Both the position numbers and the translations under genes were made by a program. Under the pieces are notes generated by a model. The model ran no database searches, was not told the DNA's origin, and was given only the letters and a program-made list of their open reading frames with translations. DNA of 38,906 nt, taken from assembly GCF_003050865.1 (NCBI RefSeq), contig NZ_QAOK01000028.1, positions 1 to 38,906 of the forward strand. The letters run 5' to 3'. Origin of the DNA: Nitrosospira multiformis. GTDB lineage: Bacteria > Pseudomonadota > Gammaproteobacteria > Burkholderiales > Nitrosomonadaceae. Numbering within the stretch: the stretch's first letter is position 1; every line of letters starts with the position of its first letter. This document shows, piece after piece, positions 14,670-36,081 of the stretch.

Positions 14670-14748
14670 GCTCTCCCCTGTCGGCGGCGGCAGCCGCGCC
14701 CAATCAGTTTGCCCCGCAGGGCAAGATTCCCGTTGAGCACATCCGTGC

Positions 14749-18775: not shown

Positions 18776-18798
18776 CGTGGGTAAAACCACGAGTTTTT
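18776..18798 (+). terminator. Rho-independent terminator, rightward
   Basis: CGTGG-GTAAAA-CCACG stem-loop followed by AGTTTTT. It would end a short rightward transcript starting near 18690. A 20-codon ORF (ATG 18738, GGAG upstream) ends on the same T-run. No larger gene is served. Confidence 0.6.
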
Positions 18799-18951
18799 AA
18801 GAAAAAATTATAAAAAAATGATTTAGGCAAGGCCGAAGGCCGCGTCAGAGAAGATTGGTTTTAAAGATTAGGAATCCTGTGGGCAATCCCTGTGGGAAAT
18901 CTTGTGGACGAAGGTTTATCGTCCATCAGGTTTTCCATCAGGGTTGTCCAT
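18795..18951 (+). repeat. Long inverted repeat, left arm
   Basis: Matches the reverse complement of 35687-35850 in exact blocks of 23 bp (18826-18848), 21 bp (18879-18899), 17 bp (18921-18937) and 13 bp (18939-18951), in the same order. The blocks contain TTGTGGA- and TTGTCCA-like words. Part of the origin region. Confidence 0.85.
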
Positions 18952-18993
18952 AGGGTAGATGAGGGTGTACTGAATGTTGGTGAGGCTTAAGAA

Positions 18994-19019
18994 ATTCCAA
19001 GTTGGAATATTTATCCACA
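18994..19019 (+). other. oriV: Palindrome and DnaA box of the vegetative origin
   Basis: ATTCCAA-g-TTGGAAT (18994-19008) is followed by TTATCCACA (19011-19019), a perfect DnaA box. Together with AT-rich DNA (18650-18830) and the iterons to the right this marks oriV. Confidence 0.75.
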
Positions 19020-19087
19020 AGTTTCCCTGCTCCAACTATCGGAGATATATATAGGTAAAACCTAAAGGCTAACCTATCGGTTTAGGG

Positions 19088-19183
19088 GGGGTCTAATTAG
19101 GCATGAATGAGGGGTCTAATTAGGCATATATTTGTCAATTCAGGGGTCTGATTAGGCATGGATGGGGGGGTCTGATTAGGCGT
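19088..19183 (+). repeat. oriV: Iteron array, four copies
   Basis: Direct 17-bp repeats GGGGTCTAATTAGGCAT at 19088-19104 and 19111-19127, GGGGTCTGATTAGGCAT at 19143-19159, and GGGGTCTGATTAGGCGT at 19167-19183. Spacing is 23, 32 and 24 bp. Iterons are bound by the plasmid initiator; repA lies next to the array. A fifth copy is beyond the inserted IS at 20548. Confidence 0.9.
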
Positions 19184-19269
19184 GGATAGATAACGGACCC
19201 CACTGAGTTATACACACTGTGAACCGCCCCGGGTTTTGTAGAGGCTTCAATATCTGAGAGAATGGAGCC

Positions 19270-19590
19270 ATGAAGAAACAGAACAAATTTCCCCCCGAGG
19301 TGCGTGAACGCGCCGTGCCCATGGTGCTGGAGCACCGTGGCGAGTATCCATCGTTGTGGGCCACCATCGAATCGATTGCGCCCAAGATTGGCTGTGTACC
19401 GCAAACCTTGAACGAATGGGTGCGCAAGCATAAAGTTGATATGGGAACGCATAACGGTGTTACCAGCGAGCGTGAACGGGTCAAGGAGCTTGAGCGGGAG
19501 AACCGGGAGTTGCGCCGTGCCAATGAGATCCTGAAGCTGGCCAGCGCGTTTTTCGCCCAGGCGGAGCTCGACCGTCGATTCAAGTCCTGA
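19270..19590 (+). CDS. IS3-family transposase OrfA
   Basis: 106 residues. Helix-turn-helix of the IS3/IS911 OrfA type ([20 protein letters not shown] to TLNEWVRKH), then a leucine-zipper-like coil ([20 protein letters not shown]) ending [20 protein letters not shown]. Binds the IS ends. It appears intact, whereas its OrfB partner is broken, so at most it could act as a repressor or inhibitor of related elements. Confidence 0.93.
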
Positions 19591-20495
19591 GAGATTTCGT
19601 CGACCGGCATCGAGCATCTAGGGGGTCGAGCCGATCTGCAAATTGCTGCAGATCGCCCCGTCTGGCTATCGACATTATGCCGCAGAGCAGAGGAATCCTG
19701 CATTGCGTTGCGCGCGTGCCAAGCGTGATGACATTCTGCTGCTACAGATTGAGCGGGTTTGGCAGGCCAATATGCAAGTCTACGGCGCTGACAAAGTCTG
19801 GCGTCAACTCAATCGGAAGGAGAGCGGGTGACACGCTGCACGGTCGAGCGGCTTATGAAACGCATGGAGTTGCAAGGTGCGCGACGTGGCAAGATTGTAC
19901 GTACCACGATTGCCGATACGGCAGCGCCTTGCCCATTGGACCGGATCAATCGGCAGTTCAAAGCAAATCGTCCTAATCAGCTTTGGGTCTCAGACTTTAC
20001 CTATGTTTCGACTTGGCAGGGCTGGTTGTATGTGGCCTTCGTGATTGATGTGTTTGCCAGGCGCATCGTAGGCTGGCGCGTCAGCAACTCCATGCAAACG
20101 GACTTCGTGCTCGATGCGCTCGAGCAGGCTCTCTATGCGCGTCAACCTGAGAAATCAGAAGGCCTGGTACATCACAGCGATAGAGGGTCTGAATGTCTCT
20201 CCATTCGCTACACTGAACGTCTCGCCCAGAGGCGGGTATTAAGCCTTCCGTAGGCAGCCGTGGCGACAGCTACGACAACGCATTGGCTGAGTCAATCAAC
20301 GGGTTGTACAAGGCTGAATTGATCCATCGCAAAGCGCCCTGGAAAACCAGGGCGTCGGTGGAATTAGCGACTCTGGAATGGGTATCCTGGTTTAACCACC
20401 ACCGGTTACTCGAACCTGTCGGTTATATTCCGCCAGCTGAAGCAGAGGCAAACTATTATCAGCAACTGGCCCAAAAGGCCACGGTAGAAGTTTAA
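19588..20495 (+). pseudogene. IS3-family transposase OrfB, frameshifted
   Basis: The integrase core is recognisable but split over frames. A break near 19621 precedes GVEPICKLLQIAPSGYRHYA, another near 19828 precedes TRCTVERLMKRMELQGARRG, and a third near 20227 precedes the GSRGDSYDNALAESINGLYK part. The DDE triad is still readable: Asp in LWVSDFTYV, Asp in HHSDRGSE, Glu in ALAESING. At least three shifts mean no active transposase, so the element is fixed in place unless helped in trans. Confidence 0.9.
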
Positions 20496-20547
20496 CTTAA
20501 ACCAAAAAGCCTCCACGAAAACCGGGGCGATTCACTGAATCATAAGG

Positions 20548-20564
20548 GGGGTCGGATTAGGCAT
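20548..20564 (+). repeat. oriV: Fifth iteron, separated by the IS
   Basis: GGGGTCGGATTAGGCAT, one to two bases off the other four, same orientation. Removing the IS and one CTG would put it about 55 bp from iteron four. It lies 52 bp from the repA stop. Confidence 0.85.
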
Positions 20565-20616
20565 AGTGCTGATCGCACCATGATCTAAGTTTGTTTCCAA
20601 TCAGCTTCTGTGAATA

Positions 20617-21585
20617 CTAGAATCCCTTATACGGAATTGGAGGAGGAGACGGCATAAGCATGATTCCTCCCGTAACCTGTTTTACCTTGGCTTCCGGGTA
20701 GACTGAGAGAGCAGCGCGTAATGCTGGTAAAAATTTCTTTTTAAAATCTTTGTCTGCATCTTTACCTTGGTATTCCTGCGCAAATTGATCGCGCAGATTA
20801 GCCCAATGCAGAACTATTGGTCTGCCCTGAATTCTATGTAAGCGCTGCGCAAGCCAGGTGTAAACGTCCAGAGCTAATGCTGAACTCTTCAGCGCCATAA
20901 AAGCGCGTAGATCGAGAGGTACAGCATGATCCTTCAGGGTGAGGTAATAATCCTGAGAGAATGTAACTGATCCCGGCCAAAAGGGACGTTGCTTTTCTTC
21001 GGTATTGAGCCACGCTTCAAAATGCTTGATGGGTTTGCCTTCGTAAGTGTGGGCCCGACCGTTTGCGTTAAAACCTAACGTCATGCGACATGCGGATAGT
21101 GCTTGTACTTGCTTGCGGAAAGTTGTGTAGACTCCGTTGCGGCCACCATTAATATTTTTGTGTCCAAGCATCCGTAGGAATTCGCTTGCACTGTCTCCTA
21201 CAGGAATTTCTGGTGAGTTGAAACGTACGGCATAGGTGTTCATCCAGGCTAACATTAGGCGTGGCATTGCTCCGTATGGGATTGGTTGTTGGACAAACTG
21301 CTTGCCATCCCATAACTTTCCGGCTTCTACCAATAATGCTGCGCCACCGGAATAACGTTCAAAAGAATTACCTTCTACTTTGGAGCGAGGTAAGCCTACC
21401 TGGCACATTATAGAGTGCATGTAGGCTCTATCATCATCATCTGGACGCTCGCCAGCAATCTCTGCAGCAGTCTTGACCAGGCGTTTCTGGTTTCTCGTTA
21501 GGGGTGGGGTTGCTGGCGAATTTGTCTCAGCTTGTTCAGCTTCTTTTTGACCAATGGCTTGATCCAAAGTCTTCTTTTGTATCAT
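20617..21585 (-). CDS. repA: Plasmid replication initiator, RepA_C family
   Basis: 322 residues. The C-terminal two thirds match the RepA_C initiator pattern: RLMLAWMNTYAVRFNSPEIP, DSASEFLRMLG, SSALALDVYTWLAQRL, VLHWANLRDQFAQEY, FLPALRAALSVYPEAKV and the terminal MPSPPPIPYKGF. It is not the TrfA initiator of IncP plasmids. The protein should bind the five iterons, which lie just downstream of its own gene, and load host replication proteins with DnaA. It is last in the leftward parA-parB-korA-repA series, 45 bases after the korA-like gene. Confidence 0.9.
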   Translation of the reverse strand: MIQKKTLDQAIGQKEAEQAETNSPATPPLTRNQKRLVKTAAEIAGERPDDDDRAYMHSIMCQVGLPRSKVEGNSFERYSGGAALLVEAGKLWDGKQFVQQPIPYGAMPRLMLAWMNTYAVRFNSPEIPVGDSASEFLRMLGHKNINGGRNGVYTTFRKQVQALSACRMTLGFNANGRAHTYEGKPIKHFEAWLNTEEKQRPFWPGSVTFSQDYYLTLKDHAVPLDLRAFMALKSSALALDVYTWLAQRLHRIQGRPIVLHWANLRDQFAQEYQGKDADKDFKKKFLPALRAALSVYPEAKVKQVTGGIMLMPSPPPIPYKGF

Positions 21586-21630
21586 CTTGAGAAGCCCCTG
21601 CGGTTGTTTCGCATTTACAACGCATTTGCG

Positions 21631-21957
21631 TCAACTGTTCTGAGAAAAATACTTGATCCGTTCACGTTCCACTTCGGTAAGAAATCGATTGAGCATTTCT
21701 TGAGGAGCACACACCGATGCTCTTACCCAATCCGGGGGAAACATGGAGTTTCGAAGGTATGCGGAATGAAACTTGTCGCGGATGGCCATTACGCGTTGGC
21801 GCGTGAGCTGGTATCGCGCAGCAACCTCAGACATATCTTTTCCCTCCACCAATATTTCGCGAGCAATCACTACGCTTTTCTCCTTTAGCCGTGTATTTCG
21901 AGCAACTCTCTCAAAATCAGCTGCGGGAATACGATAGCTATCTAACATTTGTTGCAT
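21631..21957 (-). CDS. korA: KorA/TrfB-like transcriptional repressor
   Basis: 108 residues. The N-terminal half has the KorA pattern: VVIAREILVEGKDMSEVAAR, then YQLTRQRVMAIRDKFHSAY, a helix-turn-helix at about 39-62. The C-terminal FPPDWVRASVCAPQEMLNRF resembles the dimerisation domain that KorA and TrbA share in RK2 (compare LPPGYQRICAV in TrbA here). KorA of RK2 represses trfA, korAB and kle promoters. Here the gene sits between parB and repA, so autorepression would directly set initiator level. Confidence 0.75.
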   Translation of the reverse strand: MQQMLDSYRIPAADFERVARNTRLKEKSVVIAREILVEGKDMSEVAARYQLTRQRVMAIRDKFHSAYLRNSMFPPDWVRASVCAPQEMLNRFLTEVERERIKYFSQNS

Positions 21958-21999
21958 GAAATCCTCTTCTAGCTAGCGGCATTCCTGCCGGTTTGTTGT

Positions 22000-23061
22000 T
22001 TACTTGCGATTTGCCAAAGTGTCGAGGGTGTGGCAGATTCTATAGAGCTCAGTTTGTGCGTGAACTACACTTTGCAATGTGTCGCCAAGCAGATCGAGTA
22101 CATCGTGGCGTTGTTGCAGAAGCGTGGAAAGGAGATTCATTTGTTCACAAATGGAGCGTGAATGCTCTGCAGCTTCGGCAATATGCGAAACTGCGTCTGG
22201 GTGAAGTTCGGGTTGATGGAAGTCATTTATTCTTCCGTCAGCAGTTTCTAATTCTCGCATGCGAGAATTTTCTTCCTGTTGCTCCTTTTCGTTCGCTTTG
22301 GTGTCTCGATGTTTTTCTCGCATGCGAGAATTTTCTTCTTGTTGTTGCTCCTTTTTATTCTTTTTGGCGCCTTGAAGCTTTTCTCGCACCATCTTGCGCA
22401 CATTGGCATTTGGATCAATTTTCGCCTGCTCGATCACGCTCTCAGCGGCAGCTGGATCGGTTTTTTCCAATCGATCAAGGTCATTGACTGCTGTAATGTC
22501 GGCCGTCACACGGTCAATCACAGCTTTGCTCGCTACGCCACCCGTCTCAACCACCTCAAGAAACTTGATTCTCTCGGCTACCCAATTAATGCCCTTGTTC
22601 CATTCAGCGGCCACTTTATCGAGAGTCTGAAGTCGCTCCTTATCGTCGCGTAGTGCTATTGCAATTTCCAGTTGTGTCAGATTCTCACGTTGAATATTTT
22701 CTGCGCGCTGAGTACGTCGCGCTTGTTCTTCGGTTATATCCCGAACGACTGCTTTAAGCTTCAGACCCTTTAGTTTACAGGCACGCCAACGCCGTTCACC
22801 TGCGACCATTAAGTATCGGCCTGCATGCTCTGGATTTTTTCGCAAGACGGCGGGTTCATGCTGCCCATCGCGTTTCAGATCATTGGCAAGCTCAGTTAAT
22901 GATTCAACTGTAAAACCGGGATTATCCTCACTGCGAAGCTGTTTTAGACAGTCGATCAATGCAGGATCGATTTCCTCAATGCGCTCACCAGGTAGTGATG
23001 CCGCTGCTCCCTGCTTCTGAATTTGGGACAGCTTGCTGATTTTTGTTCCAAATGCGCTCAT
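22000..23061 (-). CDS. parB: ParB partition protein
   Basis: 353 residues. ParB N-domain with AGERRWRACK (87-96) and the AENIQRENLTQLE box (120-132), then a helical DNA-binding region to about 200. A charged linker contains a tandem repeat: KEQQQEENSRMRE at 237-249 and KEQQEENSRMRE at 259-270. A C-terminal coiled region follows. ParB binds parS, spreads as a CTP-dependent clamp and works with ParA. The repeat-coding DNA carries two palindromes (22251-22268, 22315-22330). Its ATG overlaps the parA stop. It is a second ParB besides KorB. Confidence 0.92.
   Translation of the reverse strand: MSAFGTKISKLSQIQKQGAAASLPGERIEEIDPALIDCLKQLRSEDNPGFTVESLTELANDLKRDGQHEPAVLRKNPEHAGRYLMVAGERRWRACKLKGLKLKAVVRDITEEQARRTQRAENIQRENLTQLEIAIALRDDKERLQTLDKVAAEWNKGINWVAERIKFLEVVETGGVASKAVIDRVTADITAVNDLDRLEKTDPAAAESVIEQAKIDPNANVRKMVREKLQGAKKNKKEQQQEENSRMREKHRDTKANEKEQQEENSRMRELETADGRINDFHQPELHPDAVSHIAEAAEHSRSICEQMNLLSTLLQQRHDVLDLLGDTLQSVVHAQTELYRICHTLDTLANRK
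22251..22330. promoter_or_regulatory. Two ATTCTCGCATGCGAGAAT palindromes inside parB
   Basis: ATTCTCGCATGCGAGAAT (22251-22268, 18 bp perfect) and TTCTCGCATGCGAGAA (22315-22330, 16 bp perfect), 64 bp apart. A third copy is in traI. Possible parS-like sites. Confidence 0.5.
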
Positions 23062-23843
23062 GACAAAGGCTCCATTAATTTAAATCCAAGACGGGTTAAG
23101 ACAGCATCGCACGCTCGTCGCATTTCCTTGGCAGATGCACGCTGATTGCCGCTGCGTGCTCGATGCCAGACCGCGTGGCCTTGAGCCAGGGCCGTTGCTA
23201 CACATGCACGAGCAATGATCGCTTCATCAAAAATAAGCTTGCCATACGCTTCACGTAATTCAGGGAGTGCCTCAACCTCGTTGACAGATTTGCTGTTGAC
23301 CATGTTGGCGAGGAAACCAAGATGGTTTAGGTTAGGGTTGTATTGCGATTTTACCCCGGCAATTGTTGCTTGCAGTTTGGGCATTCGTGCAAACGAAAAC
23401 GGGGAGATGTTGAAGGGCGAAACGACTGCATGTGAGGCAACTAATGCGCCAAGCATTCGTCGCTGTAGATTTGGAGGAGTATCGATAATGCAAAAATCGT
23501 AGTTGCCGTTTAATTGAGCAAGAGATAGACGGGGTTGCTCAATCGTTTCAAGTGGCATATCGTCCACGTCAAGGACGTCTACATCGGCTTCTATCAACGC
23601 GATTTTTTCGTAAACCTGTCGTGGTTGCCGTCCCTTGATTTCTCCTGTAAATAAATGACTGGCTTTGAGATAGTCGGTGCCGTCATTTTCCTCGATTTCA
23701 GGGAATACTTCCGATAGGTCGCCCTCATCAACATCGATTAATAAAACACGGTAGCCTAGTTCAGCCGCACGGAAAGCAAGATGCACACTAAAAGTGCTTT
23801 TTCCGACTCCGCCTTTTTGATTGCCTACTGTCAAAATCTGCAT
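23058..23843 (-). CDS. parA: ParA partition ATPase
   Basis: I take the ATG at 23843 (261 aa), giving MQILTVGNQKGGVGKSTFSV at the N-terminus as in short ParA/IncC forms. The frame is open to 23921, but that ATG lies in the probable promoter. Walker A is KGGVGKST (10-17), and YRVLLIDVDEGDLSEVF follows as A'. YDFCIIDTPPNLQRR is the switch/Walker B region. ParA is a nucleoid-binding ATPase that moves ParB-bound plasmids apart. First gene of the leftward par-rep operon, coupled to parB by a 4-base overlap. Confidence 0.92.
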   Translation of the reverse strand: MQILTVGNQKGGVGKSTFSVHLAFRAAELGYRVLLIDVDEGDLSEVFPEIEENDGTDYLKASHLFTGEIKGRQPRQVYEKIALIEADVDVLDVDDMPLETIEQPRLSLAQLNGNYDFCIIDTPPNLQRRMLGALVASHAVVSPFNISPFSFARMPKLQATIAGVKSQYNPNLNHLGFLANMVNSKSVNEVEALPELREAYGKLIFDEAIIARACVATALAQGHAVWHRARSGNQRASAKEMRRACDAVLTRLGFKLMEPLS

Positions 23844-23914
23844 AGTTTTGCTCGTTGTATATGATTGGAGAAGGAAGTGTCTGATCCATTTCATTGTTTG
23901 TATTGTTAGAGTAG

Positions 23915-23937
23915 TTGACATGTAAATACTTTGTCAA
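23915..23937 (-). promoter_or_regulatory. TTGACA-11-TGTCAA inverted repeat in the parA/trbA intergenic region
   Basis: TTGACA (23915-23920) and TGTCAA (23932-23937). Read leftward the second arm is a perfect -35 box for parA, with a weak -10 near 23913. Read rightward the first arm could be a -35 toward trbA. Confidence 0.45.
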
Positions 23938-24038
23938 TATCTATTTTGCCATTTGCAAGATTATTTCTTGAAGAAAGTGTTTATAAAATTCTGTTTACTT
24001 TGCTCGTATGTCTTTCAAAATCTGGTATAAATCTAACG

Positions 24039-24053
24039 TTTACGCGGCATAAA
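24039..24053. promoter_or_regulatory. KorB-operator-like palindrome, site 2
   Basis: TTTACGCGGCATAAA, 17 bp before the trbA start. The wider 18-base context TTTACGCGGCwTAAATAA is shared with the korB upstream site (read toward korB), with a single difference. Confidence 0.55.
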
Positions 24054-24070
24054 TAACAAAGCTACTTATA

Positions 24071-24484
24071 ATGTCCCGCCATTTCATCTACCACGACATT
24101 TTTTTTACTAATGTTCTTCGGGTCCTCGATGAGCGCAAGATTTCTCAGAGAGAACTTGCGGAACGTGCAGGAATCTCTACTGCCTTCATATCGGACGTTG
24201 CTAAAGGAAGGAGCAATCCCTCCCTTCGAACAATGGAAGCAATTTCCGTGGCTCTTGATATTCCATTGCCAACTCTTCTTGAGTCCACCGATCTGGATCG
24301 CAAAACTCTTGACGAACTTGCTGGTGGAAAGGCCCCTCAGAGTTTGCCTCCCGGTTATCAGCGTATATGTGCGGTGATGACGGATTACCAAGCATTCTTG
24401 GCCCTGCAATGGGATGAAGCGAATAGGCAAAAAATAAAAGGCCCTAAGGCGCACAAAAAGCGTAATAAACCGAATTCCCTGTAA
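24071..24484 (+). CDS. trbA: TrbA, Xre-type regulator of transfer genes
   Basis: 137 residues (RP4 TrbA 121). The helix-turn-helix spans about 20-50 (ISQRELAERAGISTAFISDV, GRSNPSLRTMEAI). The next part, PLPTLLESTDLDRKTLDELA and LPPGYQRICAVMTDYQAF, closely follows RK2 TrbA and includes the C-terminal domain shared with KorA. In RK2 it represses the trb operon and tra promoters, keeping transfer low. No Shine-Dalgarno is seen at the ATG, but the HFIYHDIFF N-terminus is family-typical. It diverges from parA and precedes trbB, its expected target. Confidence 0.9.
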   Translation: MSRHFIYHDIFFTNVLRVLDERKISQRELAERAGISTAFISDVAKGRSNPSLRTMEAISVALDIPLPTLLESTDLDRKTLDELAGGKAPQSLPPGYQRICAVMTDYQAFLALQWDEANRQKIKGPKAHKKRNKPNSL

Positions 24485-24563
24485 GATTTTACAGTTTCCC
24501 TCTCAGTTTTTTCGCGCTAATCTCCCCCACACTTTAACGATAAATTGAATATTGCACAAATGC

Positions 24564-24598
24564 TATATTCGGTATATCGTATAAATCTTGAGTGTGGG
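24564..24598 (+). promoter_or_regulatory. trbB upstream operator region
   Basis: TATATTCGGTATATCGTATA (24564-24583) contains the 11-mer shared with the ssb upstream palindrome. AGTGTGGG (24591-24598) is an exact reverse complement of CCCACACT at 24526-24533. The trbB ribosome site GGGAG overlaps this arm, so the pair could fold the leader or bind a repressor. Confidence 0.45.
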
Positions 24599-24606
24599 AG
24601 CTTTGC

Positions 24607-25572
24607 ATGGATCAAAGGGAACAGCAGGACCTTATTAACAATCGGGCAAAGATAAAGCTCGAGCGCGATCTGGGCCCGGATTTCCTGTCTGCCCTCCATG
24701 ATCCGCGCACCATCGAGCTCATGCTCAATGCCGACGGCAGGCTGTGGCAGGAACGCCTGGGCGAGCCGATGCGCTGTTTCGGCACGATGGACACGGAGCT
24801 CGCGCAAAACGTCATCCGCAATGTTGCGGGAATGCATGGGCGCGAACTCACGCGCCACAGCCCCACCATCGAGTGCGAATTCCCGCTGGACAACTCGCGC
24901 TTTGCCGGTCAGATCCCGCCCGTGGTTCCGTCAGCCGTATTCGCCATCAGGAAGCGTGCAGTCGCCGTCTTCACGCTTGACGATTACGTTGCGGGCGGGA
25001 TCATGACCTCCGCGCAATGCGGGCGCATCAAATCAGCCGTCGCCTCCCGCGCCAACATCCTCGTCTCCGGCGGCACGGGTTCTGGCAAGACCACCCTCGT
25101 CAACGCCATCCTCAACCACCTGATCGAAATCGAGCCCTTGACGCGTGTCGTCATCATCGAGGACACGGGTGAAATCCAGTGCACCGCGCAAAACCATGTG
25201 CAGTACCACACCTCGGCGGAGGTGAGCATGACCCGCTTGGTGCGCGCGACACTGCGCATGCGGCCGGACCGCATCATCGTGGGGGAGGTGAGGGGGCCTG
25301 AAGCGCTGGATCTACTCATGGCCTGGAACACGGGGCATGAGGGCGGAGTAGCGACATTGCACGCCAATAGTGCTAAAGCCGCTTTGTCGAGGTTGGCACT
25401 CCTGATCAGCATGCATCCTGACTCGCCCCGGCCGATCGAGCCTCTGATCGGGGAAGCCGCGCACCTGATCGTGCATATTGCGCGCACCCCTGGCGGCCGC
25501 AGGGTCGAGGAAATCCTCGAGGTTTCAGGCTTTGAGAACGGCCATTACTTGACCACAACTTTCAGGGAGTAA
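24607..25572 (+). CDS. trbB: TrbB, VirB11-type secretion ATPase
   Basis: 321 residues from the ATG at 24607 (RP4 TrbB 320); GGGAG lies 6-7 bases upstream, favouring it over an ATG at 24592. Walker A GGTGSGKTT (155-163); VVIIEDTGEIQ is the Asp box; RMRPDRIIVGEVRGPEALDL is Walker B; GHEGGVATLHANS is the His box. It is a hexameric cytoplasmic ATPase that powers pilus assembly and DNA transfer. First gene of the mating-pair formation operon. Confidence 0.96.
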   Translation: MDQREQQDLINNRAKIKLERDLGPDFLSALHDPRTIELMLNADGRLWQERLGEPMRCFGTMDTELAQNVIRNVAGMHGRELTRHSPTIECEFPLDNSRFAGQIPPVVPSAVFAIRKRAVAVFTLDDYVAGGIMTSAQCGRIKSAVASRANILVSGGTGSGKTTLVNAILNHLIEIEPLTRVVIIEDTGEIQCTAQNHVQYHTSAEVSMTRLVRATLRMRPDRIIVGEVRGPEALDLLMAWNTGHEGGVATLHANSAKAALSRLALLISMHPDSPRPIEPLIGEAAHLIVHIARTPGGRRVEEILEVSGFENGHYLTTTFRE

Positions 25573-25575
25573 GAA

Positions 25576-26004
25576 ATGAGAAGCATTACGCTATTTTCAC
25601 GTGGAACATCCTCCATCCTGGCCTTTGCTTGTCTCTTGGCCATCTTCTTTCTTGCCATGTCAGGCCAGGCCCATGCATCCGAGGGCATTGGCGGCACGCT
25701 CCCCTACGAGAGCTGGCTCATGAACCTCAGGAATTCGGTGACAGGCCCCGTGGCCTTCACGCTGTCCATGGTCGGCATCGTGGTTGCCGGAGGTGCCTTG
25801 GTGATGGGAGGGGACTTGAGCGGATTCTTCCGAACCCTGGTGTTCATCGTGCTGGTCTTGGCGTTCCTGGTGGGCGCGCAGAACATGATGAGCAATTTCT
25901 TCGGGCGGGGCGCCGAGATCGCCATGAATGAGGCGGTTGAATCTCACGGAACTGCTATTGCGGAAACAGGAGGAACAGGGGAGGGGAGTGATGGCGTTGC
26001 GTAG
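25576..26004 (+). CDS. trbC: TrbC, conjugative pilin precursor (VirB2)
   Basis: 142 residues (RP4 TrbC 145). A long signal peptide (1-35, ending AHAS) is followed by mature sequence with two membrane segments ([20 protein letters not shown] and [18 protein letters not shown]). The C-terminal tail (about 115-142) is presumably removed before cyclisation by TraF, as in RP4. Three bases separate it from trbB. Confidence 0.92.
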
Positions 26005-26302
26005 GGTTCCCATCCGTCGCATCGGCCACCGCCACAACCTGCTCTTAGGCGGCGATCGCGTGTGCGTGGCGATGCTGGGCATCGTTTGCTCGGCACTCAT
26101 CTTCAACGCGCAGGAACTGCGCGCAGCCATCGTCGGTATTGCCTTCTGGATGGTTGGGTTGTACCTCCTGCGCCTGATGGCCAAGCATGATCCCAAAATG
26201 ATTATGGTGTGGTGGCGCAGCAGGCGCTACAAGGCCTATTATCCGCCGCGCGCCACTCCGTTCCGTGAGAACACCAACTCCCAGGAGTGGCACTACCGAT
26301 GA
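25991..26302 (+). CDS. trbD: TrbD, VirB3-like inner-membrane protein
   Basis: 103 residues from the ATG at 25991, the same length as RP4 TrbD; GAGGGGAG lies just upstream. It overlaps trbC by 14 bases. The [20 protein letters not shown] start, two adjoining membrane segments (about 28-60) and the C-terminal [11 protein letters not shown] are typical. VirB3 proteins pair with the VirB4 ATPase (TrbE). Confidence 0.9.
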
Positions 26303-28953: not shown

Positions 28954-29747
28954 GCACGAACGTAGGTGCGGGTGCGGGCACGGGCGTGATGCGAATGATG
29001 AAATCGCTGATTTTAAGAAAAAGCCAGGGCGAGGATGAACGCCGGACAGATGCGGCGATGGTGGACGGGAGACGGGCAGGGGAGGAGGAGAATCCTTACC
29101 TGTCGGCGCGGCGCACCTGGAACGAGCACATGGGTGATATGGCGGCCTCCCGCAGGAACTGGCAGATGCTGGGGCTATTGTCGCTCCTCATTGCCCTAGC
29201 CGCGGTGGGCGGCGTCATCCACATCGGCAGCCAGGCGAAATTCATTCCCTACGTGGTGGAAGTGGACAAGCTCGGGCAGACCCTGGCCGTCGCTCCCGTC
29301 GATCGCGCGCAGGAGGTCGATGCACGCATCGTCCACGCGGCTGTCGCTTCCTTTATCCAGCAAGCGCGCATGGTGACACCGGATGTTGCCCTGCAGAGGA
29401 AGGCGATCTTCGGAGTGTATGCCATGCTCTCGCCCGAGGACCCGGCCACCGCCAAGATGAACGAGTTCATGAACGGCAGGCCGGAAGCGAGCCCCTTCAG
29501 GCGCGCGGAGCGCGAGATGGTGAGCACCGAGATCGTCTCGGTGATTGCGCAATCCCCGCAGACCTGGCAGGCCGACTGGACGGAAACCGTGCGCGATAGG
29601 CAGGGGATCGTGAAGAACAGTTACCGCATGAGGGCACTTGTGACGGTATACGTGGCGGAACCGTCTCCCGACATCAGCGAGGCGCAGCTGCGCAACAATC
29701 CGCTTGGCATCTATGTCAGCGATTTTGCCTGGTCGAGACAACTCTAG
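28950..29747 (+). CDS. trbF: TrbF, VirB8-like protein
   Basis: 265 residues (RP4 TrbF 260). Cytoplasmic N-terminus, one membrane segment (about 73-92, MLGLLSLLIALAAVGGVIHI), then a periplasmic NTF2-like domain beginning FIPYVVEVDKLGQ, the VirB8 hallmark. A bitopic scaffold of the inner-membrane channel. ATGA overlap with trbE. Confidence 0.94.
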   Translation: MSTNVGAGAGTGVMRMMKSLILRKSQGEDERRTDAAMVDGRRAGEEENPYLSARRTWNEHMGDMAASRRNWQMLGLLSLLIALAAVGGVIHIGSQAKFIPYVVEVDKLGQTLAVAPVDRAQEVDARIVHAAVASFIQQARMVTPDVALQRKAIFGVYAMLSPEDPATAKMNEFMNGRPEASPFRRAEREMVSTEIVSVIAQSPQTWQADWTETVRDRQGIVKNSYRMRALVTVYVAEPSPDISEAQLRNNPLGIYVSDFAWSRQL

Positions 29748-29763
29748 GAACCTCAAGGCTTTC

Positions 29764-30984
29764 ATGAAAATTCCCCTGCGATATCTCCCGGCGTTTTCCC
29801 CGACCAGGCTTGCGGTGGCGCTCGCGGCAGGCCTGCCGCTGGTCGCGGTCACCGCGGCGATCGCCAACAATACCCTGCAGCAGCCCAAGTTGCCTGAGTT
29901 GCTGTTGCCGCAACAGTCAACCCAGCTGCCCCAGCCACCCCAGCTATCCAGGACGGCAGGCTACATCGCGTCCCCCCAGGACAAGGTGCCGGCGCCACAA
30001 TCCGCTCCCGGGAACCTGCTTTCCGGCACGCCGCCACTGCCACCTGGCCCGCCTGCTTCCCCTATACCTCCCACACCCCCCACGTCCTCCACACCGCCAA
30101 TGCCGCCCATACCGGTTGCCTCGGTTCGGGATTTGCCAGACCCGCCAGAGGCAGCGTCTCCCCAGGCCCTGCATTTCAGCAATCCGGAGATCAGGCTGTC
30201 GCCGCAGGAGCGCGCAGTCCTGGCTTTGGCCAAAAAATGGAAGGCGGGGGCGTCGACCCAAGGGGTGAAGCCTGTGATCGGAGGGGACGGCACCATCCGC
30301 TTCCTCTATGGGGCCACGCAACCCAGCATCATCTGCGCCGTTTTGCAGGTATGTGACGTGGAGCTGCAGCCGGGCGAGCAGGTCAATTCCCTGCACCTGG
30401 GCGACACGGCCCGCTGGACGGTGGAACCAGCCGTCACAGGTTCCGGCAGGATGGAAGTGCAACACCTCATCATCAAGCCGATGGACACGGGCTTGGAAAC
30501 CTCCTTGATCGTGACCACCGACCGGCGCACCTATCACCTGAGATTGCGCTCGCACCGCAGCGAATTCATGCCGCGGGTGGCCTTCACCTACCCGGAAGAG
30601 GCCATGGCCAAGTGGGAGAAAATCAGGCGCCAGGAGCAGGCCGCCCACGACAACCAGATCATGCCGGGCACCGGCGAGTCTCTGGAAAACCAGGACTTCG
30701 ATTACACGATCGAAGGGGAGGCCGCGCGCTGGAAACCGCTGCGGGTTTATAACAACGGAGTGAAGACCATCATCCAGATGCCGGCAACGATGAGCCAGAC
30801 TGAGGCCCCGATCCTGCTCGTGGTGCGCAAGGATGGGGGCTTCTTCACGGATGAGGAGTCGGTGCAGGTCAACTACCGCCTGCGGAACGGCCGCTTCATC
30901 GTGGACGGCATCTTCGACAAGGCCATTCTCGTGGCAGGCGTGGGCTCCAGCCAGGACCGCGTCACCATCACACGGGGGAAGTGA
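29764..30984 (+). CDS. trbG: TrbG, VirB9-like protein with proline-rich insert
   Basis: I take the ATG at 29764 (406 aa), with AAGG 6 bases upstream. A signal peptide (about 1-35) precedes a long Pro/Gln-rich linker (about 45-130, e.g. PPLPPGPPASPIPPTPPTSS). The VirB9 domain (about 150-406) includes GTIRFLYGATQPSIICAVLQ, LHLGDTARWTVEPA and the C-terminal RFIVDGIFDKAILVAGVG. At 406 residues it is about 100 longer than RP4 TrbG, because of the linker. VirB9 proteins form the outer-membrane core ring. The linker could span the periplasm or peptidoglycan. Confidence 0.93.
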   Translation: MKIPLRYLPAFSPTRLAVALAAGLPLVAVTAAIANNTLQQPKLPELLLPQQSTQLPQPPQLSRTAGYIASPQDKVPAPQSAPGNLLSGTPPLPPGPPASPIPPTPPTSSTPPMPPIPVASVRDLPDPPEAASPQALHFSNPEIRLSPQERAVLALAKKWKAGASTQGVKPVIGGDGTIRFLYGATQPSIICAVLQVCDVELQPGEQVNSLHLGDTARWTVEPAVTGSGRMEVQHLIIKPMDTGLETSLIVTTDRRTYHLRLRSHRSEFMPRVAFTYPEEAMAKWEKIRRQEQAAHDNQIMPGTGESLENQDFDYTIEGEAARWKPLRVYNNGVKTIIQMPATMSQTEAPILLVVRKDGGFFTDEESVQVNYRLRNGRFIVDGIFDKAILVAGVGSSQDRVTITRGK

Positions 30985-30985
30985 T

Positions 30986-31501
30986 ATGCGCAGCTTGATT
31001 CCATTGCTTCTCTGCCTTGTTCTTGCCGGTTGCGCCAGCCTGCAGGAAACCCGGCAGCAAAACCGCAACAGTCTGGCCGATGACAGGATTGCACAGGACG
31101 CCACCAACCAGCTGGCACAGCTCTATCCGCCGGCGAAAACGCAATTCAACTTGGGTCTATCTGAGCCCCGGGAGTTCGGGAAACTGCTGGCCGCAAAATT
31201 GCGGACCAGGGGCTATGCGGTTTCGGAAACCGTGAAGACAAAAAGAGTTTTGTTTGCGGACACCTTCGCCGGATTCCAGCAGAAACCGGGCGTTCAATCG
31301 GATGAGCCCCAAGCCCGGGGCATGGAAACTCCCACGGCAGCAGGGCAGGGCACAGAGCTTTCCTATACCCTCGATACTCCGGAGCACGCCTCACTTTATG
31401 CCATCACGTTGAAGGTGGGTAACAGTTATCTCTCGCGCGCCTATCTTCCGGATGCCAAGGGTGTCGCCGCGGCGGGCGCCTGGACTTATAGGGGGCAATG
31501 A
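30986..31501 (+). CDS. trbH: TrbH, lipoprotein (VirB7-like role)
   Basis: 171 residues from the ATG right after the trbG stop (RP4 TrbH 160). Lipobox LVLAGC with lipidated Cys16. The mature domain (AQLYPPAKTQFNLGLSEPRE..., later LYAITLKVGNSYLSRAY) is typical of TrbH. Expected in the outer membrane with TrbG and TrbI. Confidence 0.9.
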   Translation: MRSLIPLLLCLVLAGCASLQETRQQNRNSLADDRIAQDATNQLAQLYPPAKTQFNLGLSEPREFGKLLAAKLRTRGYAVSETVKTKRVLFADTFAGFQQKPGVQSDEPQARGMETPTAAGQGTELSYTLDTPEHASLYAITLKVGNSYLSRAYLPDAKGVAAAGAWTYRGQ

Positions 31502-31502
31502 T

Positions 31503-32834
31503 ATGAACGATCCCATGGCGCCTTCAGCTTCCCCGAACCGGTTGCAGACAAAATGGGGCGTGCGCCGCGCAAACGACCTGCCGCTCTATTTGCTTGGGGT
31601 GGCCGCCGCCATCTTCCTCATCGTCATTGGATTGGTTGCGATGGACCGGGCAAAGACCAAGCACAGAGAAGAAACTGCGAAGACTGCCGCAGGGAGCAAT
31701 GCAGCCATGTTCGCCAACGAGATCGCGGGCGAACACAAGGGCGGGATGATCCCGGCAGTCGAGCCGGTAATTCATGACAACAGCTATTCGGAGAATCCCA
31801 ATCTACCATCCGTGCCACCCATGCCTGCCAGTCTGCCTTCGGCAAGGCATCCTGCAACTGCTGAGACGCAGGAAATGCAGCGCATCCGGCAGCTTAAAGT
31901 GCAGCAGTTCGAGGAGGCCTTGAAGGCGAAAACCGGGGTGCAAATCGCAAGGCGTGCATCGCAGGACGCACCGAGGACGCAAGCTGTTCCGGTCTCGAAC
32001 ACCGATCCCACCGTCGTGTACAAGGAGCGCCTGGCAAGCCTCAAGGGGGCAGGGCTTATCGCGCATGAGGATTATGAGGATGCAGGACAAACACAGCAGG
32101 AGCGCTCGCCGCGCAACGATATCGGCGCATTCGACAACAGGGAAGGGAATGACCGGTGGAAACTTGATTCCAGACCCACGCCGCCGCGCTCGCCCTTTAC
32201 AGTGCTCACAACCTCCGTCATCCCGGCAACACTCATTACCGGCATCAATTCTTCCCTGCCGGGCAAGATCTTCGGACAGGTGAGCCAGGACGTGTTTGAT
32301 ACCGCCACCGGAAAATACCTCCTGATCCCGCAAGGCACCAAACTGGAAGGGGAATATTCGAGCGAAGTGGCGTACGGCCAGGCAAGTGTCCTGGTGGCGT
32401 GGCAGAGGCTGGTTTTTCCGGATGGGAAGACCATGGATATCGGAGCCATGCCCGGTTCCACCGGAGCAGGCTACGCGGGCTTCACCGACCAGGTGAACAA
32501 CCATTATGCGCGCCTGTTTGGCACGGCGATCCTGATGTCCGCCATCTCCGCGGGGGTTGCCTTGAGCCAGAGCAGGAACCAGATCGGGGGCACCTTCGGC
32601 GCGCCCACGACCAGCAGCGTGTTGAGCGCCACCCTGGGGCAGCAACTCGGGCGCGTGATCACACAGATGATCTCGAAGAACCTCAACATCTCGCCCACGC
32701 TTGAAATCCGCCCGGGCTACCGCTTCAACGTCACGGTGACGAAGGACATGGTCTTGGCTCGCCCGTACCAGGCTTTCGATTACAGGGGAGGAAGGCTGAA
32801 CGAAAATACGCCGAATGGAAATACGAATGGATAA
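31503..32834 (+). CDS. trbI: TrbI, VirB10-like channel protein
   Basis: 443 residues from the ATG 1 base after the trbH stop (RP4 TrbI 463). Cytoplasmic N-terminus, membrane segment 28-47, a Pro/Ala-rich periplasmic region, then the VirB10 domain from about 225 with VLTTSVIPATLITGINSSLP, YLLIPQGTKLEGEYSSEVAY and the C-terminal YRFNVTVTKDMVL. It bridges inner and outer membranes and senses ATP use by the channel. Confidence 0.95.
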   Translation: MNDPMAPSASPNRLQTKWGVRRANDLPLYLLGVAAAIFLIVIGLVAMDRAKTKHREETAKTAAGSNAAMFANEIAGEHKGGMIPAVEPVIHDNSYSENPNLPSVPPMPASLPSARHPATAETQEMQRIRQLKVQQFEEALKAKTGVQIARRASQDAPRTQAVPVSNTDPTVVYKERLASLKGAGLIAHEDYEDAGQTQQERSPRNDIGAFDNREGNDRWKLDSRPTPPRSPFTVLTTSVIPATLITGINSSLPGKIFGQVSQDVFDTATGKYLLIPQGTKLEGEYSSEVAYGQASVLVAWQRLVFPDGKTMDIGAMPGSTGAGYAGFTDQVNNHYARLFGTAILMSAISAGVALSQSRNQIGGTFGAPTTSSVLSATLGQQLGRVITQMISKNLNISPTLEIRPGYRFNVTVTKDMVLARPYQAFDYRGGRLNENTPNGNTNG

Positions 32835-33618
32835 AGGATTGAATAAAGGCGCACCCTACACAGCCCGGGCAATCGCTGCTGCCGCCATGATCGCAGGCCT
32901 GTCTGCTTGGCCGATCCAGGCAATTCAGGCCGGTGGAGTTCCCGTTTTTGATGCCGCGAACATGCAGCAGAACGTCATCTCGGCGATCGAGGGCGTGAAC
33001 CAGACCATGAAGATGGTCGAGCAGTACCAGCTGCAGCTTCTTCAATACGAGAACATGTTGCGCAATTCGGTGGCTCCCACCGCCTATGTCTGGAACCGGG
33101 CCCAGATGACCACCATGCGCCTGATGGGCGCAATGAACACCCTGCAGTACTACCGCAACCAGGCAGGCAGCCTCGATGGCTACCTGCTTCGCTACCAGAA
33201 CCCGTCCTACTACATGAATTCGCCCTGTTTCGGCCCCAATGGCTGTACAGTAGAAGAGCGTGCGAGCCTTGAAAATAACCGGCGCCTGAATGCCGATGGC
33301 GAGAAACTTGCAAATGATGCGATGCTTCGCAGCCTTGAGCTGCAGGAACTGGAATTGCAGGCGGATGCGGCAAGGCTCGAGCAATTGCAGCGCAATGCCG
33401 AGGATGCGCCAGGGCAGATGGCGGCAATCCAGGCAGCAAACCAGCTCGCGAGCAACCAGGCGAGCCAGCTCATGCAAATCCGGGCGCTCTTGATCGCACA
33501 GCAGAATGCCGAAGCAGCACGCCAGGCGAGGATTGCGGATATAGAGGCGCAGCAGGCGGCTGCGGCAGTACAGGCAAGGCGGGGTACCTTTCAAAAGAGT
33601 CCGCCACGTGAATGGTAA
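32827..33618 (+). CDS. trbJ: TrbJ, VirB5-like protein
   Basis: 263 residues from the ATG at 32827 (an ATG at 32815 adds four), overlapping trbI. Signal peptide to about residue 36 (MIAGLSAWPIQAIQAGG). The mature protein is mostly helical (NVISAIEGVNQTMKMVEQYQ; long Gln/Ala-rich coil 170-250), as in the minor pilus subunit VirB5. The last seven residues KSPPREW are identical to the end of TrbK encoded next. RP4 TrbJ is 258 residues. Confidence 0.92.
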   Translation: MDKGLNKGAPYTARAIAAAAMIAGLSAWPIQAIQAGGVPVFDAANMQQNVISAIEGVNQTMKMVEQYQLQLLQYENMLRNSVAPTAYVWNRAQMTTMRLMGAMNTLQYYRNQAGSLDGYLLRYQNPSYYMNSPCFGPNGCTVEERASLENNRRLNADGEKLANDAMLRSLELQELELQADAARLEQLQRNAEDAPGQMAAIQAANQLASNQASQLMQIRALLIAQQNAEAARQARIADIEAQQAAAAVQARRGTFQKSPPREW

Positions 33619-33627
33619 GGAGAGGAT

Positions 33628-33837
33628 ATGAAATTAAAAGCATTAAGCATCATTTTGATGAGTATTTTATTGTGGGCTTGTAATGGTGGTGAGCCACCGG
33701 AGAGCCCAAGAATCAAGAATCCTACTTGCGAGGATCTGGGAAAAATTACTGATGAAGCAGAGCATAAGGCCTTGCTCGCAAAATGCCCTGATTATCTTCC
33801 TGGGGGTACAAAAAAAAGCCCTCCACGTGAATGGTGA
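33628..33837 (+). CDS. trbK: TrbK, entry-exclusion lipoprotein
   Basis: 69 residues, the same length as RP4 TrbK. Lipobox LLWAC with Cys18. The short mature part has a Cys pair (CEDL...CPDY) and ends KSPPREW. GGAGAGG lies 5 bases before the ATG. TrbK in RP4 sits in the membrane and blocks uptake of the same plasmid by a cell that already has it. The codon mix is more AT-rich than in trbJ, hinting at faster evolution. Confidence 0.88.
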   Translation: MKLKALSIILMSILLWACNGGEPPESPRIKNPTCEDLGKITDEAEHKALLAKCPDYLPGGTKKSPPREW

Positions 33838-33842
33838 TCAAT

Positions 33843-35165
33843 ATGAGAACACCAAGTAGAGTAATTGGACTGCCTTTCTTGTTGTTCTTAGTGTTTACCC
33901 TATTCTCGATCCAAGCCCACGCGGAAATCGCAAATATAAGCGTGCTGGATAACATATTGGATCGCTATCATACGGCCGCATCAGCATGGCAAACGGTTAT
34001 TACGGAGCGTGCCAGCTGGCTGTTTTGGCTGTTGGTAACAATCAGCATGGTATGGACGTTCGGCCTGATGGCGCTGCGGCGGGCGGATATAGGCGAATTC
34101 TTCGCAGAGTTTCTCCGCTTCACGATCTTTACCGGCTTCTTCTGGTGGCTGCTCATCAATGGGCCTGCTTTTGCCAGCTCGATTATTGCCTCGCTTAAGC
34201 AGATCGGTTCCGAGGCCAGCGGACTACGCGGAATGGGGTCTCCGTCCAGCATTGTGGATATCGGTTTCGATATCTTTTATCGGGCGTTAGATCAATCTAC
34301 GCTTAGCTTACCTGTTGATAGCATGACCGGCATCATCATGGCGGCAATTATCCTCATCATCCTGGCGCTGATTAGCGTCAACATGGTGTTGCTTCTGGTA
34401 TCCGGCTGGATACTGGCCTACGCCGGTATTTTCTTCCTTGGCTTCGGTGGTTCGCGTTGGACTTCCGAGATTGCGATCAACTATTACCGCACGGTCCTGG
34501 GGGTTGCGATATCACTCTTTGCCATGGTGCTGCTGGTGGGCATCGGCAAGACCTTCCTGGATGATTATTACATTCAGATGAGTGGCGGTCTCAGTCTCAA
34601 GGAAATGAGTGTTCTGATGGTAATTTCCATCGTGCTGCTCGTGCTGGTCGACAAGATTCCACCCATGCTAAGCAGCATTGTGGGCGGTGGGGCAGGGGGG
34701 ATAGGTAACCTGGGTGCCGGCACAGCGATTGCCGCGGCCGCAACTGCAACAGGTGTTGCCACCGGCATGATGATGGCCTCCGCCGCCAATGCGGCAGGGG
34801 GAGCATCCGCAATCAAGGCTGCGTTCGACGCTGCTCACGCCAGCATGGAAGGCGGCATGGGAATGTTTGCCGAAACGCAACCCAGGCAGGATACGCCATT
34901 GGGCGGACTAGCCCAGGCCATGGGCACGCCATCGCGCTTTGTAGCTGAAATGGGCTCTCACCTCGCTCGAGGTGGGATGGAGGTGGTCAAGAGCGGCATT
35001 GCTTCGCAAGGCGGGCGTGTCGCCCAAACCCCCGGCGGAAAAGTTGCCTCAGCCATTCGTTCCAACATTCCTGAGCCCCAATTCAAGGGCAATGCGTTTG
35101 CCGGATCGACGGAGACGAAGCTGGATGCGGAAGCGGAAGCTGCTGCCTTCCGGGACAGCAAGTAA
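33843..35165 (+). CDS. trbL: TrbL, VirB6-like polytopic membrane protein
   Basis: 440 residues from the ATG at 33843 (an ATG at 33831 overlaps the trbK stop). Signal-like N-terminus (LPFLLFLVFTLFSIQAHAEI), then at least five membrane segments through about 290 (e.g. WLFWLLVTISMVWTFGLMAL; GIIMAAIILIILALISVNMV; MSVLMVISIVLLVLVDKIPP). A Gly/Ala-rich segment (GGGAGGIGNLGAGTAIAAAA) and a soluble C-terminal tail follow. It forms part of the inner-membrane channel path. Confidence 0.94.
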   Translation: MRTPSRVIGLPFLLFLVFTLFSIQAHAEIANISVLDNILDRYHTAASAWQTVITERASWLFWLLVTISMVWTFGLMALRRADIGEFFAEFLRFTIFTGFFWWLLINGPAFASSIIASLKQIGSEASGLRGMGSPSSIVDIGFDIFYRALDQSTLSLPVDSMTGIIMAAIILIILALISVNMVLLLVSGWILAYAGIFFLGFGGSRWTSEIAINYYRTVLGVAISLFAMVLLVGIGKTFLDDYYIQMSGGLSLKEMSVLMVISIVLLVLVDKIPPMLSSIVGGGAGGIGNLGAGTAIAAAATATGVATGMMMASAANAAGGASAIKAAFDAAHASMEGGMGMFAETQPRQDTPLGGLAQAMGTPSRFVAEMGSHLARGGMEVVKSGIASQGGRVAQTPGGKVASAIRSNIPEPQFKGNAFAGSTETKLDAEAEAAAFRDSK

Positions 35166-35182
35166 CAGGGCAGGGGAGTGTG

Positions 35183-35635
35183 ATGGATCTGCCTCCTGAT
35201 TTGCCGGAGCGCGTCGTCTGTTCGATCCAAGCTGCCGTGAAATACGAAGTCCCAGCAAACATCCTTCTCGCCGTGGCCGAGAAGGAGGGAGGCAAGCCGG
35301 GTCAATGGGTGCGAAACTCGAATGACACCTACGATATCGGCCCGATGCAGTTCAATACCGCGTATCTTTCCGACTTGGCCAAATATGGCATCAGGCCCGA
35401 GCATGTGGCGCAATCGGGATGTTACCCATACGCGCTCGCCGCCTGGCGTATCCACATGCACATCCGCAACGACCGGGGCGATCTGTGGACGAAAGTGGCC
35501 AACTACCACTCCTATACGCCGCACCTCAATGAGTCATACCGTGCAGACCTGATGCGAAGGGCGGCCAAGTGGGAAAAATGGCTCAATTCCCGCTTTGCTA
35601 CCAGGGAAGTAACCTTTCGGATTGACAAGCGGTAG
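35183..35635 (+). CDS. trbN: TrbN, lytic transglycosylase
   Basis: 150 residues (RP4 TrbN 211). AGGGGAG lies 4-5 bases before the ATG. SLT-like catalytic region ANILLAVAEKEGGKPGQWVR with candidate Glu33/Glu35, then DIGPMQFNTAYL (the GPMQ.N motif), and ANYHSYTPHLNESYRADLM near the end. It cuts peptidoglycan to make room for the channel. No signal peptide is visible, and the ~60 missing residues relative to RP4 may be N-terminal. trbM, which precedes trbN in RP4, is absent. Confidence 0.9.
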   Translation: MDLPPDLPERVVCSIQAAVKYEVPANILLAVAEKEGGKPGQWVRNSNDTYDIGPMQFNTAYLSDLAKYGIRPEHVAQSGCYPYALAAWRIHMHIRNDRGDLWTKVANYHSYTPHLNESYRADLMRRAAKWEKWLNSRFATREVTFRIDKR

Positions 35636-35647
35636 CAATGTGGATGA

Positions 35648-35661
35648 TCGGCTAAAGCCGA
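35648..35661. repeat. TCGGCT-aa-AGCCGA hairpin, dispersed copy 2
   Basis: 12 bases after the trbN stop; shares GA(T/C)CGGCTAAAGCCG with 5773-5787. May end the trb transcript, though there is no T-run. Confidence 0.5.
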
Positions 35662-35686
35662 GCGTCCGGCAGCACTAGCTTGGCCC

Positions 35687-35850
35687 ATGGACAACCCTGC
35701 TGGAAAACCTGATGGACGGATAAGGCTACGTCCACGAAGTTTCCCACAGGGATTGCCCACTGGCTTCCCGGACTTTCATCCACATAAAATACAACCTTCC
35801 TGACGCGGCCTTCGGCCTTGCCCAAGCTATTTTGATTTTTTCTTTAAAAT
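35687..35850 (-). repeat. Long inverted repeat, right arm
   Basis: Reverse complement of 18795-18951: exact blocks at 35800-35822 (23 bp), 35740-35760 (21 bp), 35701-35717 (17 bp) and 35687-35699 (13 bp). It lies just past the end of the trb operon. Confidence 0.85.
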
Positions 35851-36081
35851 CTTGTCGGCCGGCCAAAATGAGACTTGACCCCAAGTAGACGCTGAAGCCG
35901 CAGAGTGTAGCGCTATCAAGGATGAGCGCACATTGGTTCTTCTCTTCAGCTTATCTACGCGCTCCGGCTACCCCAGCTGCCCCTTGAATGAGAGGAGTAT
36001 TGCTCTGCTATATTTGAGAATAAGGAATTTAACAATCCTTGTATCCGTAGACATTTTTCCATTGGGGTAAGCGAGAACCAA
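35851..36081. other. Intergenic boundary between backbone and cargo
   Basis: No gene. Begins CGGCCGGCCAAAATGAGACT, then TGACCCC, which resembles repeats inside some IS21-type element ends, but too short to assign. Confidence 0.3.

Follow-up and report, generated by a model that had tools for sequence, protein, structure and literature searches.

Two copies of one conserved folding DNA element, lying on opposite strands, bracket the rep-par-trb block in contig C28 of Nitrosospira multiformis genome G000, a 38,906-bp stretch that was analysed whole and is called the window. That the repeated segment is a conserved folding element is close to certain. The element is read here as a single-strand initiation (ssi) element of the type belonging to mobile plasmids, which would prime replication, and we give this reading a probability of about one half. 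Single-stranded DNA (ssDNA) is probably its acting form. The repeat, the conserved fold, its strand preference, its distribution and its synteny are observations.

The inverted repeat and its conserved fold

The inverted repeat of about 160 bp that an initial annotation had described around the rep-par-trb block is real. In a BLAST comparison of the window with itself, 18794-18954 (arm A) and 35849-35684 (arm B) align on opposite strands with 77.3% identity over 172 columns with gaps (128 bits, E 6.2e-30). The pair is the top-scoring inverted match of the window, and a direct-repeat pair at 2570/7204 scores higher (198 bits). The exact blocks common to both arms keep their order, as the annotation had stated, and now measure 23, 21, 18 and 13 bp, together with a 10-bp A-rich block. 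Exact inverted matches more than 1 kb apart number 8, 4, 2 and 0 at 21, 22, 23 and 24 bp in the window, and these counts are due to the 23- and 21-bp arm blocks alone. Arm A lies about 130 bp from four iteron-like 21-nt repeats (19088-19187, + strand), a putative replication origin (oriV), with ssb starting about 150 bp away. In arm B the BLAST match begins about 50 bp past the SLT-domain gene that closes trb, 16.7 kb from arm A, and the arm is longer than this match, extending over 35628-35859 in cmsearch with models R1 and R2.

Copy 1, in arm A, occupies 18785-18978 by cmsearch (R1, 160.8 bits) and blastn, with the + strand, predicted to be the transferred strand (T-strand), as its folding strand. 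It contains a mini-hairpin, GGCC-GAA-GGCC, at 18831-18841 (+; from sequence and folds) and a core hairpin, P2, at 18876-18955 (+; from its fold and family covariation), and the stretch 18790-18960 folds with a z of -5.2. Copy 2, in arm B, has the full branched form and folds on the - strand, predicted to be non-transferred; it scores 194.1 bits with R1 at 35661-35859 and 135.9 bits with R2 at 35628-35798. Its parts, all on the - strand, are the P2 core (35682-35764), helix P1b (5' side 35768-35773, pairing with 35664-35669) and the P3 side hairpin (35648-35661), which are assigned from fold and covariation, and helix P1 (5' side 35777-35786, pairing with 35638-35647) and the same mini-hairpin (35807-35817), assigned from sequence and fold. 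P1 is absent from the own fold of some relatives, arm A included, and many relatives have P1, P1b and P3.

The core P2 is an imperfect, bulged hairpin of about 80 nt and about 34 pairs. Over 21 sequences its pairing is kept in 93.8% of 693 cells, and both-side changes occur in 11 of the 34 pairs (32 cells), values reached by none of 500 shuffles. The branched form, counted over 15 sequences, is paired in 92.8% of 886 cells, with both-side changes in 24 of 64 pairs (76 cells) and in every one of the four helices, again with none of 500 shuffles reaching either value. A measure of further pair types is weaker for both (14 of 500 shuffles for P2, 32 of 500 for the branched form). The P2 count took 21 of 27 cores, dropping close duplicates (Citrobacter, Hydrogenophaga, L046, L051 and L053) and the degenerate, poorly folding L050, an omission that favours the fold. 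The branched count took 15 of 21 extended elements, leaving aside the near-duplicate Hydrogenophaga and the Aeromonas, Edwardsiella, Pasteurella, Novacetimonas and Komagataeibacter elements, whose stem lengths differ; arm A, L040, L044, L046-L051 and pNRS527-1, with no clear P1 apparent, were never among the 21. When all 21 extended elements were aligned automatically, P1 and P3 came out misaligned, and the 25 pairs returned were all in P2. The counted structures come from single members (L039 and Citrobacter), a bias in their favour over the slid controls.

The strand preference is seen in the wobble pairs. G·T cells outnumber C·A cells by 86 to 8, all 15 rows showing the same bias, and by 84 to 5 in a further count; the G of the G·T pairs is mostly on the 5' strand (75 vs 11). 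This excess identifies one strand as the folding strand, and 25 of the 27 cores fold better on it. As modelled, the element is a stable, conserved and covarying hairpin with a strand preference. The spacers between the exact blocks, called diverged in the initial annotation, do differ, yet by compensatory changes that preserve base pairs. Its proposal of a duplicated origin segment under selection holds, while the covariation indicates that the folded strand, and not a set of short sites, is what is selected. Double-stranded binding sites serving DnaA titration, partition or silencing, with the palindromy incidental, would suit the enrichment of DnaA-box-like 9-mers described below and the place of arm A at the putative oriV. 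However, such sites do not need variable stem parts that co-vary to keep their pairs, nor one favoured strand, and the fold is kept in trb-end copies far from rep; we consider this explanation improbable.

A structured RNA, antisense or regulatory, transcribed from the folding strand is somewhat less improbable, as covariation and G-U-type wobbles suit RNA as well as ssDNA. Against it, scans of sequence around arm A, around arm B and around the pBBR1 copy gave no sigma-70-like promoter, the one type sought, on the folding strand within or upstream of the element, and the 4 kb upstream of the trb-end copies share no BLAST match at E 1e-10. At the gathering cut-off, the two Rfam families found in the window both lie away from the arms, and three relatives have none; the best Rfam model at arm A is a microRNA-precursor at E 1.1. 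Additionally, the partner genes vary among plasmids. A trb terminator was also considered and rejected: arm B shows no terminator-like site, and the strand that the wobbles point to is opposite to the trb transcript.

Distribution and place in plasmid backbones

Searching related plasmids with either arm, as the initial annotation had proposed, was fruitful. Among 72,556 plasmid records, blastn with the arms finds pBBR1, small Citrobacter, Klebsiella, E. coli and Proteus plasmids and the Nitrosospira plasmid pNRS527-1, and relatives used as queries add the pKPC2_CF65 group, Aeromonas, Edwardsiella and Pasteurella plasmids and those of the acetic acid bacteria Novacetimonas and Komagataeibacter. 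A hand count gives 36 distinct records, some of them weak (two Pasteurella matches are 51 nt long). R1 matches occur in 11 of 23 genomes of the genus, 7 of 399 of the order and 5 of 369 of the class, several of the order and class ones being weak, and R2 matches in 3 of 398 genomes of a phylum sample, the own genome being included each time. An exact pattern matches 12 stretches in a collection of 84,980 species, namely ten in Nitrosospira/Nitrosovibrio, one in Erwinia and one in Hydrogenophaga, and 1 of 20,395 E. coli records matches the pKPC2_CF65 copy. The core pattern had no match in viral contigs, nor arm A in 50,697 phage records. R2 found nothing credible in F 40-80 kb, R751 1-50 kb, ColE1 and parts of pT181 and pKPN2, the one match having an E of 3.6. 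Model matches in G192, G291, G248, G711, G714, G486, G464, G016:C50, G000:C1, G481 and G822 were not taken as members; that in G822 scores the same as the Erwinia copy, and that in G464 resembles tRNA genes by eye.

The carriers are diverse. Their relaxases are MOBV, MOBC and MOBQ by PLSDB typing, with a MOBP-type TraI in the window and pNRS527-1, and their Reps are RepA_C (window), RepL (Edwardsiella, Komagataeibacter) and an HTH type (Aeromonas and a Citrobacter cousin of pBBR1), with a PF03090 replicase in Proteus and a ColE1-cluster replicon in pKPC2_CF65. Since the element is common to such differing relaxase classes and Reps, it is most simply read by host proteins. Of the 2.7-kb relatives, pBBR1 has one annotated gene and its Citrobacter cousin two, none of them KorB or ParB; the two in the cousin are mobV and an HTH gene. 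A common insertion sequence (IS), an alternative already named in the initial annotation, and a miniature inverted-repeat transposable element were both rejected, as the copies are few, short and non-coding and mostly follow a position in plasmid backbones or their remnants.

Transfer polarity was predicted from the transfer origin (oriT). A nic-like motif, CATATCTTGCCC, lies at 14802-14813 on the + strand of the window, and slightly varied forms of it lie between traJ and traK in seven other plasmids. Its likeness to the nic of RP4, and hence the + strand as the transferred one, is an analogy that we assume; by it, the T-strand would enter toward traK, korB, ssb and arm A. With the + strand as the predicted T-strand, arm A would fold on the T-strand and arm B on the other.

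The element stands at the trb end, its folding strand being the predicted non-T strand, in all seven fetched carrier plasmids with trb, the window included. These plasmids had been chosen because they bear the element, and a trbE search was therefore run as a correction: in the 23 genus genomes it returns eight contigs at 76% identity or above, of which seven carry the element. The eighth, contig C2 of genome G011 (G011:C2), has no element by R2 (E up to 10), its best nhmmer match having an E of 1.6. It has an unrelated repeat, in two directly oriented copies 97% identical over 185 columns, and these occupy the two sites used in the window, the trb end and the repA-ssb gap. The trb-end copy has a branched fold (z about -5.9), and the other folds strongly too. 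No further complete copy of this repeat was found in the 23 genus genomes, one 53-bp piece being present in G006, and a 59-nt match occurs in 1 of the 72,556 plasmid records. This single replacement points to positions that are themselves important and that can be taken by different folding elements. For two more distant trbE contigs (48%; 38-43%), no element was found in 15 kb of G014:C54 with R2 or in genomes G014 and G005 with R1.

The window and the near-identical plasmid G003:C4 are two-arm plasmids with opposite copies; in the other five syntenic carriers one full copy was found. In pNRS527-1, which is arranged otherwise, the element follows traM in the leading region and stands 44 bp ahead of a gene start. 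In five further plasmids the gap from rep/trb to ssb/korB was scanned for folds, with a mixed picture: strong hairpins in some and nothing in G003:C10. Beside ssb in G019:C7 (L104 3405-3505, - strand) stands a third, unrelated branched fold with TTATCCAC, which has no R2 match and has weak matches in Massilia and Sulfuriferula plasmids. In G020:C1 a direct repeat of 356 columns and 70% identity ties the repA-ssb gap to a site at about 38.3-38.7 kb of the same contig, by our own arithmetic.

A recombination, inversion or multimer-resolution site, flipping the 17-kb block or marking integration ends, would account for the inverted arms and for copies in G000:C3, G000:C55 and G008:C7 that are truncated inside the hairpin beside other DNA. 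Yet the flip envisaged in the initial annotation finds no support: the relative orientation of tra and trb is constant in all eight syntenic plasmids read, window included, and the enclosed block is oriented in G003:C4 as in the window, the two being the two-arm plasmids. Identity between the arms is only 77%, and their longest exact block is 23 bp; 30 of the 31 plasmid records in one search for relatives carry the element at a single place, and the Citrobacter cousin has no annotated recombinase. This explanation is very unlikely.

A candidate route of priming

The priming reading supposes that a strand turns single-stranded in a melted oriV, as a lagging-strand template or as a conjugation intermediate. 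This strand would then fold into the A-tract, the mini-hairpin and the branched P1/P1b/P2/P3 structure, and host replication proteins would load at the folded element and prime the opposite strand. With one copy per strand, in opposite orientation, both strands would be primable. The most concrete route would be DnaA-assisted loading of DnaB in the style of the ABC-primosome, and it is suggested by degenerate DnaA-box-like rungs one turn apart. In P1 and P2 the motif TGTGG(R)/(T)CCA recurs about every 12 nt, approximately one helical turn, and the 31 extended elements contain 23 9-mers that differ from TTATNCACA at no more than one position, against 3.7 expected and a maximum of 9 in 60 shuffles. 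The weak model match in G486 falls on a cluster of DnaA boxes, beside an open reading frame (ORF) that we take for dnaN from its sequence by eye. The rungs perhaps resemble degenerate DnaA boxes; DnaA itself as the factor acting at the element is possible, and rather doubtful.

The element is not oriented in the same way to mob, rep and the T-strand in all plasmid families. This argues against a strict single-strand origin (sso) of rolling-circle plasmids and against an Frpo-type single-stranded promoter, and it agrees with a general ssi, able to act on either strand.

Several points weigh against the priming reading. The folding strand is the non-T strand in all seven trb-end copies and in pNRS527-1 (where the call comes from traK and traJ only, no nic-like match being found there) and the T-strand in the two arm-A copies; mob and the element run the same way in the Citrobacter cousin of pBBR1 and opposite ways in Aeromonas; and the trb-end copies lie more than 10 kb from repA where repA was found. 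G011:C2 shows the element to be replaceable. Eleven of the 31 elements lack any 9-mer at one mismatch or less from TTATNCACA, and the better-scoring TTRTCCACA (61 9-mers in the 31 elements vs 2.9 expected) was picked after inspection of the data. Many rows are closely related, so the covariation and strand counts are not independent. L049 and L050 fold better on the opposite strand, and the full P2 is not the own best fold of L050, L052 and L053, nor the own best extended fold of L047 and L050. Finally, conserved pairing alone fits RNA as well as DNA.

A broader proposal is tentative. The element may represent a new class of single-strand origin, a "stepladder" branched hairpin with DnaA-like rungs, common to several relaxase and replicon families of transmissible plasmids, of which the large conjugative ones would keep two slots, after trb and between oriV and ssb, refillable with unrelated folding elements.

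Neighbouring features, known systems and significance

The window contains Pfam-supported genes for traG, traI, a nikA/traJ-type gene, traM, korB, ssb (18237-18641, - strand, PF00436, adjoining arm A), repA (20617-21585, - strand, RepA_C, PF04796), korA, a parB-type gene, an incC-type ATPase, trbB and trbL, and a KfrB-domain gene at 16492. The SLT-domain gene, last of the trb block and adjoining arm B (35180-35635, + strand), rests on conserved synteny and on PF01464 at 20.4 bits, slightly below the curated cut-off of 21.3. The names traK, traL and those of the remaining trb genes were assigned by position and by comparison with pNRS527-1. The genes at 36082 and 36438 matched no Pfam or PADLOC family at E 0.001. 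Within the putative oriV, an IS3-like element (HTH_Tnp_1, rve, ALIL pseudoknot RF01497) at 19220-20532 splits the four iterons from a fifth copy at 20548 and is missing from G003:C4. A traJ-II RNA (RF01760, 90 bits) lies beside oriT at 14710-14813 on the - strand. Elsewhere, a segment of about 145 nt occurs in three copies (2570-2714, 7204-7348 and 9826-9970), and since the third is inside an S26 peptidase gene, the other two may be gene fragments derived by duplication.

Other copies of the element have surroundings of their own. The 4.6-kb Edwardsiella plasmid pEP1 (L118) has directly oriented copies at 1227-1388 and 4016-4178 and is possibly a cointegrate. A chromosomal relic at L055 9946-10011 has lost most of P2 and kept both flanks, as would be expected of hairpin deletion during replication. 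At L038 (G000:C3, 34.6 kb), L042 (G003:C26) and L043 (G008:C9), the match to the plasmid within about 20 kb is limited to trbL, the SLT gene and the element, and in each of the three genomes the locus lies near a 955-aa ORF with a similar start; they are probably one decayed plasmid insertion at one site. Defence-type cargo is found on the outer side of the element, namely GajA/GajB (L043, L044), PDC-S25 and AbiU models (L042) and type II methyltransferase models (L046).

The A-site of the ABC-primosome places a single DnaA box in one hairpin (PMC6127211). The element would be like this site (M13-A) in being an ssDNA hairpin with DnaA-box-like sequence for which host proteins only would suffice, and is unlike it in being branched and in having several degenerate rungs, its priming being what we infer. 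Plasmid ssi sites are likewise folded priming sites, read by host proteins, yet R2 has no match in ColE1 or in the F region searched. The two opposite signals of the window and G003:C4, one per strand, recall ssiA and ssiB of RSF1010. Those both stand at oriV and are served by a plasmid primase; unlike them, the copies described here are 16.7 kb apart and not both at oriV. Further ssi sites are those of ColE1-like plasmids (PMC2831885) and those of F, R6K, R100 and ColE2. The ssi of pIGRK and pHW126 is palindromic, and that of pIGRK is non-essential, its loss raising copy number and causing multimerization (PMC6854812). This ssi-like site of small enterobacterial plasmids serves as a precedent and is likened to the element by description and not by sequence.

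The sso is orientation-specific (PMC4595007). The element resembles the sso of rolling-circle plasmids and ICEBs1 as folding DNA that would start a second strand, and differs in that its orientation against rep and mob varies by plasmid family. Taking the direction of rep to indicate the displaced strand, we rejected an sso of fixed orientation: in Edwardsiella and Aeromonas veronii the element runs parallel to the annotated rep, and in pBBR1, Citrobacter and Komagataeibacter it runs opposite to the HTH/RepL-type gene.

Frpo would offer yet another function, a single-stranded promoter for early leading-region genes in the recipient. Arm A lies in the leading region and has the predicted T-strand as its folding strand; it stands directly before ssb, which is one of the genes behind Frpo2 in F (PMC9849209), and the pNRS527-1 copy likewise precedes a gene start in the leading region. 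However, neither arm contains a promoter-like pair of -35/-10 hexamers, most copies on large plasmids (seven at the trb end, and pNRS527-1) fold on the non-T strand, with arm A and its G003:C4 counterpart on the T-strand, and R2 finds nothing in F 40-80 kb, the region holding ssb and psiB. An Frpo-like promoter is thus unlikely.

A literature search found no description of the element, the older ssi literature lying largely outside its coverage; ssi work was published mostly in older subscription papers. For pBBR1, the parent of widely used broad-host-range vectors, it found no account of second-strand priming and none pairing the plasmid with single-strand initiation. The slot replacement suggests that such elements are exchangeable parts of plasmid backbones. 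If true, a host-read priming element common to several relaxase classes would help explain how plasmids, both small and large, establish themselves in many hosts.

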